This document shows, piece after piece, positions 26,442 to 28,055 of a stretch of 64,000 nt of DNA. A program made the translations under genes and the position numbers. The stretch's first letter is position 1. Every line of letters begins with the position of its first letter. The stretch is from assembly GCA_024403715.1 (NCBI GenBank), contig JAKSRJ010000006.1, positions 1 through 64,000 of the forward strand. Direction: 5' to 3'. The notes beneath the pieces are model-generated. The model saw only the letters and a program-made list of their open reading frames with translations. It was not told the DNA's origin and ran no database searches. The DNA comes from Saccharofermentans sp. (GTDB lineage Bacteria > Bacillota > Clostridia > Saccharofermentanales > Saccharofermentanaceae).

Positions 26442-27283
26442 ATTCCATCAACCTCTTCCTTGATTCTTCTACCCTCATCAAGAAGATCTTTTAAGTAATC
26501 AAAATCTTCTCTCTCGAGTGCATCCTTATACTTAACAAGCTCGCCCATAAGATAGTCAATCTCAAAGATAAGGTTATCCTTATTCTCGAGGAAAAGCTGT
26601 GTCCACATAGTTGGGTTAAGCCATGCAACTCTAGTCATATCCTTATAAGAACCTGCAGAGAAGCCCTTATGGTTACGTGATGTTGGGCTCTTAATATAAG
26701 CATTAGATACGAGATGTGCCATCTGAGATGTAAAAGCAATCATCTTATCGTGCTCTTCTGCTGTAGCAATATGAAAAGAACCGAACTGACAAGGTCCGAG
26801 TAAGTCCTCTACTCTATTAAGCAAATCTGCATCATCAAATACTGATGGTACTACTACCATAGGAGCGCCCTTATACATGTCGCCACGAGAGTAATCCATA
26901 CCTGAGAACTTAGTGCCTGCCATCGGGTGACAACCTACGAAAGTAAAACCACCCTCTTTTGCGATTCTAAAGCCTTCTTCACATACTGTTCTCTTTGTAC
27001 CGCAGGCATCAATTACGAGACCGGACTTATTAAACTTGTCCTTACGGTCTTCCATCCACTTAAGTGTAGCTGCAGGATAAAGGCTTAATACAACAAGGTC
27101 GCACTCACAAAGATTGTCGTCTGTAAGATAATCATCAATTACTCCCAGCTCTTTTGCAGTCTGAGTTACTGACTCAGTACGGTTCCAACCGTAAACAATA
27201 GCCTCGCTATCATTCTCTTTATAAGCCTTCGCGAAAGAAGCACCTATCAAACCTAACCCAACTACACCTACTTTAATCTTCAT
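26438..27283 (-). CDS. tyrA: Prephenate dehydrogenase
   Basis: A 281-residue NAD(P)-dependent enzyme of the TyrA class that converts prephenate to 4-hydroxyphenylpyruvate, committing carbon to tyrosine. The Rossmann motif VGVVGLGLIGASFAKAY is followed by VIDACGTKRTV, the catalytic His region FVGCHPMAGTKFSGMDY and MIAFTSQMAHLVSNAY. The ribosome binding site AAGGAAGG precedes the ATG. It is first in the aro operon, directly behind the Tyr-rich leader and terminator, which fits feedback by tyrosine. Confidence 0.94.
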   Translation of the reverse strand: MKIKVGVVGLGLIGASFAKAYKENDSEAIVYGWNRTESVTQTAKELGVIDDYLTDDNLCECDLVVLSLYPAATLKWMEDRKDKFNKSGLVIDACGTKRTVCEEGFRIAKEGGFTFVGCHPMAGTKFSGMDYSRGDMYKGAPMVVVPSVFDDADLLNRVEDLLGPCQFGSFHIATAEEHDKMIAFTSQMAHLVSNAYIKSPTSRNHKGFSAGSYKDMTRVAWLNPTMWTQLFLENKDNLIFEIDYLMGELVKYKDALEREDFDYLKDLLDEGRRIKEEVDGI

Positions 27284-27313
27284 AATTTTATGCCTTCCTT
27301 TTTATCGTATTAA

Positions 27314-27342
27314 AGTATACTCCATGCTTTGCCAATTGCCGA
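27314..27342 (-). promoter_or_regulatory. Possible secondary promoter between the attenuator and tyrA
   Basis: The minus strand has TCGGCA, a 17-base spacer and TATACT, 31 bases before tyrA. If active, it would give a basal transcript that bypasses the upstream terminator. The -35 is a poor match, so this is uncertain. Confidence 0.35.
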
Positions 27343-27364
27343 CATTCATATAACTATTAATGAC

Positions 27365-27399
27365 TTAAAAAACGCCGCCCGAGTGATTCGTGCGGCGTT
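27365..27399 (-). terminator. Attenuator terminator upstream of tyrA
   Basis: A GC-rich eight-base-pair stem (27371-27378 with 27392-27399) is followed by a T run on the minus strand, 54 bases after the stop codon of the Tyr-rich leader ORF and about 80 bases before tyrA. It could simply end carD transcripts, but its position between the leader and the operon is that of an attenuator. Confidence 0.85.
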
Positions 27400-27447
27400 C
27401 TGTTTGTTACTTATCGTATTAGAACTTATTTATTGCACAAACCACTC
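27381..27447 (-). promoter_or_regulatory. Candidate antiterminator pairing of the tyr leader
   Basis: Two nested complementary segments lie in the leader RNA. GAGTG-GTTTGT just after the leader ORF (minus strand, 27447-27437) can pair with ACAAAC (27407-27402) and CACTC (27385-27381). The second partner sits inside the terminator loop, so this fold and the terminator should exclude each other. A third segment at the end of the leader ORF (TTACTTT) can pair with AAAGTAA directly after it, giving the usual 1:2, 2:3, 3:4 logic. The folding is read by eye, not computed. Confidence 0.5.
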
Positions 27448-27452
27448 TTACT

Positions 27453-27509
27453 TTACTTAGCAAAGTAATAATAATAGTTATATGCGTATGTGTAATAGTC
27501 CTTTTTCAT
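27453..27509 (-). CDS. Tyrosine-rich leader peptide of the aro operon
   Basis: An 18-codon ORF reading MKKDYYTYAYNYYYYFAK, with eight Tyr codons including four in a row, followed by one Phe. It lies between carD and tyrA and is followed by the terminator hairpin. When charged tRNA-Tyr is scarce, a ribosome stalled on the Tyr run would free the downstream segment to form the antiterminator. No ribosome binding site is seen. The predicted promoter places the transcription start at the ATG, so it may be translated as a leaderless message. The peptide itself probably has no other role. Confidence 0.75.
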   Translation of the reverse strand: MKKDYYTYAYNYYYYFAK

Positions 27510-27516
27510 GAGGTTA

Positions 27517-27546
27517 ATTAAAACATCCTTCACTACTATGTGTCAA
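27517..27546 (-). promoter_or_regulatory. Promoter of the tyr leader and aro operon
   Basis: A perfect -35 TTGACA (27541-27546) contains the carD stop codon TGA. It is followed by an 18-base spacer and TTTAAT (27517-27522). The leader ATG begins seven bases further on. Confidence 0.6.
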
Positions 27547-28055
27547 GTTTTACGGGCATTTTCAAGGATAAAGTCTGGTACATCCTTAGGATCTATGTCT
27601 AGTGCCACCGCAAACTCTGCATCAATTCTATGACGTGCATCATTAAGCATTTTCTCATCCTGCTGATTAAGTGTTTTACCACAGTCTTCTAGACGCTGCT
27701 GATGTGCATATAAATTATTAATAACCTGTATGATATCCTTACGATCACCCTTGGTTATCATAGTTCCGTAAGTATTTTTACGTGCGTTCCTGTCCTCAAT
27801 CCAATTTGTATCGGAAATGTCGATACTATAAATCAATTCCATAGCTTCATCTTTGGTAATTACAGGTCTAATTCTAGCTTTGCATTTCTCATTATCGTAT
27901 GGAACATACATCACTTGTGCCTGCTTAACAAAAAGAGGCTTCATCACAAAATACTTCTGTGGTGCCTCATGATAAAAACTGATATCTCTGATATCCTCAA
28001 TCTCGCATACGCCACTCGCGCCGTATACAACCGTATCGCCCTTCACGAAATCCAT
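27543..28055 (-). CDS. carD: CarD/CdnL family transcription regulator
   Basis: About 170 residues. The N-terminal 60 residues form the RNA-polymerase-interacting domain shared with Mfd (FVKGDTVVYGASGVCEIEDI, YFVMKPLF, VMYVPYDN). The helical C-terminal domain normally contacts promoter DNA. CarD proteins stabilise open promoter complexes at rRNA and housekeeping promoters. The ATG at 28055 is preferred to one at 28070 because a GTGAGG ribosome binding site lies six bases before it and the domain begins there. The stop codon is embedded in the -35 element of the next promoter. Confidence 0.9.
   Translation of the reverse strand: MDFVKGDTVVYGASGVCEIEDIRDISFYHEAPQKYFVMKPLFVKQAQVMYVPYDNEKCKARIRPVITKDEAMELIYSIDISDTNWIEDRNARKNTYGTMITKGDRKDIIQVINNLYAHQQRLEDCGKTLNQQDEKMLNDARHRIDAEFAVALDIDPKDVPDFILENARKT

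Follow-up and report, generated by a model that had tools for sequence, protein, structure and literature searches.

Classical attenuators of the Proteobacteria, those of trp, pheA and his, combine a leader peptide that contains regulatory codons with mutually exclusive antiterminator and terminator structures. For the tyrosine and aromatic genes of Clostridia, the T-box is the type of control usually considered. T-box-controlled Tyr operons have been described in the B. cereus group (PMC2494555). In C. glutamicum, the aroR-aroF attenuator has a Phe-Tyr-Phe leader and, according to the review of the work of Neshat et al. (2014) in PMC11802643, was reported to respond to Phe and not to Tyr. The attenuator leader peptide of C. 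glutamicum ilvBNC has been discussed as being translated from a leaderless mRNA (PMC11857589), and the uORFC-13-1 motif, which lies upstream of aroF and contains at least 1 Phe codon, has been described in Acholeplasma and environmental sequences only (PMC8632094).

We compared these systems with an element of the gut bacterium Saccharofermentans sp. that lies in what we call the window, that is, the whole stretch of 64,000 nucleotides of DNA that was analysed. It resembles aroR in that a DAHP synthase operon is preceded by a leader peptide containing Phe/Tyr codons and in attenuation, predicted in our case, by ribosome stalling. Compared by description only, it differs from the aroR leader of this Actinobacterium in having 8 Tyr codons (four in a row), tyrA as the first gene and a conserved antiterminator of its own. 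The ilvBNC leader, also from an Actinobacterium, concerns branched-chain amino acids. With uORFC-13-1 the element shares a uORF and a terminator upstream of aroF, whereas no Tyr run has been reported for that motif. It differs from the proteobacterial trp, pheA and his leaders in phylum and sequence, in being dominated by Tyr and in a start that is probably leaderless in the window's subgroup. Like a T-box (RF00230), it would read tRNA charging in order to control amino acid genes, the sensor here being a translating ribosome. A search of the literature, with few subscription journals covered, brought up no description of this element. What is new in an otherwise known kind of device is that Tyr dominates the leader, that it is widespread in Clostridia and that a leaderless variant exists, as the spacing suggests.

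Judged from its sequence and from comparison, the element is very probably a ribosome-mediated attenuator of the operon from tyrA to aroQ, with charged tRNA-Tyr as its main signal and Phe as a minor one; that the ribosome stalls and that the response is to Tyr is what we infer. The features of the leader region are as follows.

27546-27541, minus strand: -35 hexamer TTGACA, which overlaps the stop codon of carD; a TTGACA or TTGCAA-type box is present in 55 leaders
27522-27517, minus strand: -10 hexamer TTTAAT with a TGn extension; TTTAAT in 50/55 leaders
27509-27453, minus strand: leader peptide ORF MKKDYYTYAYNYYYYFAK*, 18 codons; aromatic-rich homologous leaders in 55 relatives
27485-27474, minus strand: region 1, Tyr codons 9-12, a putative protector that can pair with region 2 (pairing 87%)
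27468-27448, minus strand: ORF-end hairpin UUACUUU/AAAGUAA, nested within the 1:2 structure
27445-27435, minus strand: region 2, GUGGUUUGUGC, the 5' arm of the antiterminator, with UUUGUGC as its conserved core and changes that are compensated in region 3
27393-27383, minus strand: region 3, GCACGAAUCAC, the 3' arm of the antiterminator, also in the 5' arm and loop of the terminator
27400-27370 (stem-loop) and 27372-27367 (U-run), minus strand: intrinsic terminator GAACGCCGCACGAAUCACUCGGGCGGCGUUU, -17.9 kcal/mol

The first-pass annotation had proposed a Tyr-rich ORF of 18 codons between a promoter and a terminator upstream of tyrA, and this ORF is present when the gap between carD and tyrA is read on the minus strand. 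Its codons are ATG AAA AAG GAC TAT TAC ACA TAC GCA TAT AAC TAT TAT TAT TAC TTT GCT AAG TAA, with 8 Tyr codons, 4 of them consecutive, and a single Phe codon that is the last of the aromatic codons. When the gap was randomized under a dinucleotide model, 21 of 20,000 copies contained an ORF of at most 50 codons with at least 8 Tyr. The -35 and -10 hexamers are separated by 18 nt, and 7 nt separate the -10 box from the leader ATG. The first downstream gene is indeed tyrA, as had also been proposed, and its product has the PDH_N and PDH_C domains of the Tyr-committing enzyme.

TyrA was found in all 58 other Saccharofermentans genomes of our sample. None of the 58 has a Tyr-rich leader directly before tyrA, because in these relatives aroF, which encodes a DAHP synthase of class I-beta type (NF006421), sits between the leader and tyrA: an aromatic-rich leader precedes aroF, followed by tyrA, in 55 of them. 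The three others are a genome with a deletion in the leader (G020), one in which the locus lies at a contig edge (G057) and one with no leader (G013). In the first of these (L015), the leader upstream of aroF is without a segment of start-proximal codons, and what remains of the ORF would encode MLLLLL*, from consecutive Leu codons, in front of an otherwise intact attenuator; this is either a mutant or an assembly error.

The genus leaders are 19-27 codons long (for example MKTAVFFYAYSYYYYFREKN and MNRNFYAFAYNYYYYFTNVK), a few of their start codons having been assigned by eye. Over the 56 leaders including that of the window, Tyr makes up 29% and Phe 15% of the residues and Trp is absent; Tyr is encoded by TAT 156 times and by TAC 172 times. 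Reading frame, start and stop are kept in all 56, length changes between leaders preserve the frame, third codon positions diverge most and Tyr is replaced mainly by Phe. The leaders of the relatives contain 3-9 Tyr and 1-5 Phe codons, so that the element might be regarded as a general aromatic sensor for Tyr plus Phe, not a Tyr sensor. The C. glutamicum aroR case would fit this reading, as its codons are Phe-Tyr-Phe and, according to PMC11802643, Phe limitation alone is reported to act. For the window we consider it rather unlikely, given 8 Tyr codons against a single Phe at the end of the aromatic codons and a Tyr-committing enzyme as the first downstream gene. The near-exclusive Tyr content is particular to the window genome; since most relatives' leaders carry both Tyr and Phe codons and stand before aroF-tyrA, the ancestral signal was probably Tyr plus Phe. 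The core of the earlier proposal, a Tyr-codon ribosome attenuator for the aromatic operon, is strongly supported, with leader, antiterminator and terminator conserved and showing compensatory changes.

A promoter could be read for 55 genus leaders. In 47 of them, a Shine-Dalgarno-like sequence follows the -10 box and precedes a start codon that lies 28-37 nt downstream of this box. In the window and six relatives (G045, G012, G030, G039, G014 and G058), the ATG follows the -10 box by exactly 7 nt with no Shine-Dalgarno sequence; in G051 the distance is 9 nt. The simplest reading of a 7-nt spacing without a Shine-Dalgarno sequence, a spacing that is also the basis for the choice of start codon, is that the leader peptide is probably leaderless in the window and the six relatives. 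In the TyrA tree, the window has a long branch close to the base of the A-type and leaderless groups. In leaders with a Shine-Dalgarno sequence (L002-L030 and L085-L094), the start codon is often flanked by ACCGCAG on its 5' side and CTGCGGT on its 3' side. Pairing of these motifs would enclose the Shine-Dalgarno sequence and the start in the loop of a hairpin with which the RNA begins, a possible additional control over leader translation.

For the analysis of the RNA structures, the leaders were aligned in two groups, A1 (28 leaders, including the window) and A2 (the A-type subgroup, 28 genomes), and a further alignment, A3, contained 32 leaders, 17 from the genus and 15 from other lineages. 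This covariation analysis, which the first-pass annotation had called for, showed compensatory changes in both the antiterminator and the terminator. The antiterminator, 27445-27435 with 27393-27383, has 11 bp with a standard pair in 99.0% of the A1 cells; 9 cells show double changes (UA, CG and AU at one pair), 0 of 500 shuffles were as good, and control helices slid along A1 were at most 54% paired. In A3, 96.2% of its cells are paired and 22 show double changes, which again 0 of 500 shuffles equalled. The terminator is 94.9% paired in A1, where 5 pairs have double changes (0/500 shuffles), and has double changes at 8 pairs in A3 (0/500 shuffles). The antiterminator is less regular in A2, with 80% of the cells on one common structure and, among the 28 A-type genomes, no covariation on that structure; each of these genomes has an antiterminator duplex of its own, of -14.5 to -20.5 kcal/mol. 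Region 3 is common to antiterminator and terminator, which are therefore mutually exclusive. The long-range pairing suggested previously, of 27437-27447 with 27402-27407 and 27381-27385, was misplaced with respect to this conserved antiterminator, and the hairpin TTACTTT/AAAGTAA suggested at the end of the ORF was recovered at 27468-27448.

The 1:2 helix, a putative protector formed by the Tyr codons and region 2, is paired in 87% of the A1 cells with covariation not above that of shuffles. As an observation apart, the Tyr-codon segment of the window (27489-27475) is complementary over about 13 nt to 27364-27350, just downstream of the terminator. This pairing is used by the unconstrained fold and lies near the aroF deletion described below; it may be due to chance.

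Since the Tyr codons fall in a pairing segment, and since the 1:2 helix might be enough to constrain UAU/UAC, one could argue that the RNA structure alone matters, as a riboswitch, a protein-binding leader or a plain terminator, and that the Tyr-rich ORF is a by-product of AU-rich pairing whose peptide is never made. The way in which the ORF is conserved makes this highly improbable: frame, start and stop are kept in the 56 genus leaders, 47 of 55 have a Shine-Dalgarno sequence, length changes preserve the frame, and variation is concentrated in third positions and in Tyr-to-Phe exchanges. Moreover, leaders of other families, with differing sequences, still encode Tyr/Phe runs at the same place, and no Rfam family matches the leader.

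The ribosome attenuator that we favor would operate as follows. Transcription would start at the leader ATG (27509) or 1-2 nt away. With ample Tyr-tRNA, the ribosome would pass the Tyr codons and reach the stop codon, and region 2 would be partly covered by the terminating ribosome or, after its release, be paired with the Tyr-codon segment in the 1:2 helix. Region 3 would then be free to pair with region 4, and the resulting terminator at 27400-27370 would halt transcription. Under Tyr shortage, a ribosome stalled on the Tyr run would leave region 2 (27445-27435) free to pair with region 3 (27393-27383), the terminator would not form, and tyrA and the following genes would be transcribed. In five leaders (L085, L086, L091, L092 and L094), the ORF extends through region 2, with codons for VVCA or AVCA before the stop, so that a ribosome finishing translation would cover region 2 directly.

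We folded the leader RNA with and without a ribosome footprint, as the first-pass annotation had suggested, and found that a stall on the Tyr codons is predicted to leave the antiterminator formed before region 4 is made. With region 3 made and region 4 absent, the predicted probability of the antiterminator was 1.00 for a ribosome held on any Tyr codon and went down to 0.60 for a ribosome at the stop codon. The full-length RNA, when folded with no ribosome, contains the 1:2 helix (0.93) and the terminator (0.98). At equilibrium, ribosome-free nascent RNA favors the antiterminator (0.99) over the 1:2 helix, suggesting that the 1:2 helix must win by forming first. The terminator (-17.9 kcal/mol) is favored over the antiterminator (-12.0, helix with an open loop) in every case once the RNA is full-length, and the switch must therefore be kinetic. 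Kinetic switching is familiar from known attenuators.

The genes around the leader are listed below.

28070-27543, minus strand: carD-like gene, upstream; a conserved neighbour at many genus loci
27345-27310, minus strand: fossil of the aroF 3' end, MSAIGKAWSIL*; 9/11 residues match the aroF C-termini MDAIGKARSIL*
27283-26438, minus strand: tyrA, prephenate dehydrogenase (PDH_N, PDH_C), now the first gene after the attenuator
26441-25359, minus strand: aroB, 3-dehydroquinate synthase (TIGR01357 over cut-off)
25362-24214, minus strand: aroA, EPSP synthase (TIGR01356, E 3.5e-53, below cut-off)
24214-23117, minus strand: aroC, chorismate synthase (TIGR00033 over cut-off)
23117-21582, minus strand: chorismate mutase-AroE-AroK fusion (CM_2, Shikimate_dh_N, SKI)
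21601-21173, minus strand: aroQ, type II 3-dehydroquinate dehydratase (TIGR01088 over cut-off)

The fossil, ATG TCG GCA ATT GGC AAA GCA TGG AGT ATA CTT TAA, lies between the terminator and tyrA. Compared with its 9 residues matching the aroF C-terminus, the next best of the 7,733 stop-ended 11-mers in the window matches 4, indicating that aroF is deleted in the window genome except for its last 12 codons, counting the stop. Originally, the attenuator of this lineage would have stood before aroF-tyrA, and it would now control tyrA directly. A search for AroF I-beta gave no match in the window genome (83% complete), in G418 or in G013, and a separate family search agreed on the absence for the window genome and G418. 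The window genome has another DAHP synthase, of the aroFGH type (class I-alpha), on contig C24, where no leader was seen by reading. We found no support for the idea that aroF loss drove the Tyr enrichment, since G418 is also without aroF and its leader has 4 Tyr and 5 Phe codons.

The loss of aroF could also mean that the attenuator is a relic, with tyrA expressed from another promoter. The fossil, the deviation of the window leader (8 Tyr, 1 Phe) from those of its relatives and a weak promoter-like match at 27342-27314 would agree with such decay. This match, proposed earlier as a second promoter that bypasses the leader, is at chance level (4 promoter consensus matches found in the region, 4.0 expected) and lies within the codons of the aroF fossil. 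Promoter, ORF, 11-bp antiterminator and terminator (-17.9 kcal/mol) are all intact and strong, and G418 (L192), another genus genome without aroF, keeps the leader, both antiterminator arms and the terminator directly before tyrA. Decay is thus very unlikely, and the attenuator probably still serves tyrA.

Two further hairpins were noticed near tyrA in other genomes. In most A-type genomes (L002-L030), a second terminator-like hairpin with a U-run, such as GACGCCGGAATTACGGCGTCTTTTTT in L002, lies between aroF and tyrA and could keep tyrA at a lower level than aroF. In a different family of the order (G071, L063), an unrelated Phe/Tyr-rich ORF, MKSLFLQKAYFFFDFIFSYLFSYRYFCYEKQNCFM, and a terminator-like hairpin precede tyrA.

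A leader of this kind had been expected to be unusual in Clostridia; instead, within the genus it is common, and it turns up again across the class. Outside the genus, a Tyr/Phe-rich leader precedes aroF-tyrA in 24 of the nearest TyrA relatives (L149-L177). These records are labelled Oscillospiraceae, Christensenellaceae and other Clostridia, with two Pyramidobacter (L163, L168) and one Dehalococcoidales (L169), the last two names possibly being binning labels. A covariance model, R2, was run on 391 genomes across the class and 398 across the phylum. In the class it found the element in 13 genomes outside the genus, from nine families, one of the 13 (G138) apparently being in the training set; 12 of the elements stand before aroF-tyrA and 1 (G398) before pheA. 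Two further matches (L199, L203), consisting of the terminator only, had been removed as false positives. In the phylum, 3 genomes outside the class, from two families, have it, all before aroF. AroF I-beta is present in 276 of the 391 class genomes, and so, at the sensitivity of R2, the attenuator serves a minority of them.

The Rfam 15 search of the window at gathering score gave no family at the leader and a single tRNA elsewhere. T-box RF00230 had no match in the window at gathering score, nor in 27200-27650 at E up to 5; it has 5 matches elsewhere in the window genome, and a T-box match was found at 6 of 20 other aroF loci examined. No second copy of the element rose above noise in the window genome. 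G204 has a second, Phe-rich copy before a phenylacetate-CoA ligase-like gene, outside amino acid synthesis; at this locus (L204, 1465-1622) the leader is MFLSVLFVFICLYFYFFAFLFCKSKSVLCCG, with a similar region-2 core and terminator. In L187 (about 1465-1637), a leader MIQLSLVFAFIYFYFYFYFINEVRVICDANNR precedes a chorismate mutase/prephenate dehydratase (pheA-like) gene.

Taken together, these data incline us, by a modest degree, to regard the element as an undescribed, old and widespread family of cis-regulatory RNAs, found in Clostridia and, beyond them, in some members of the phylum, that replaces the T-box at aroF-tyrA. Under this proposal its specificity was retuned by swaps of Tyr and Phe codons, it spread to pheA and the phenylacetate-CoA ligase-like gene, it functions both where a Shine-Dalgarno sequence is present and where there is none, and it outlived the deletion of its original first gene. 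A ribosome attenuator and a T-box at one operon would make two sensors of tRNA charging directly comparable among relatives, and the natural variants, in Tyr/Phe ratio and with or without a Shine-Dalgarno sequence or aroF, offer a ready series for the evolution of attenuator specificity and initiation. It would also be a candidate for inclusion in Rfam: the element has no counterpart among the families there.

A different aromatic leader-like ORF, with the conserved motif (W)GFYFSAG and a terminator-like hairpin, was observed upstream of a DAHP synthase gene in the class genomes L223, L234 and L250 and in L251-L255. Its DNA, GGGCTTTTATTTTAGCGC, is nearly identical across families, and these ORFs are possibly a second, unrelated class of leader peptides.
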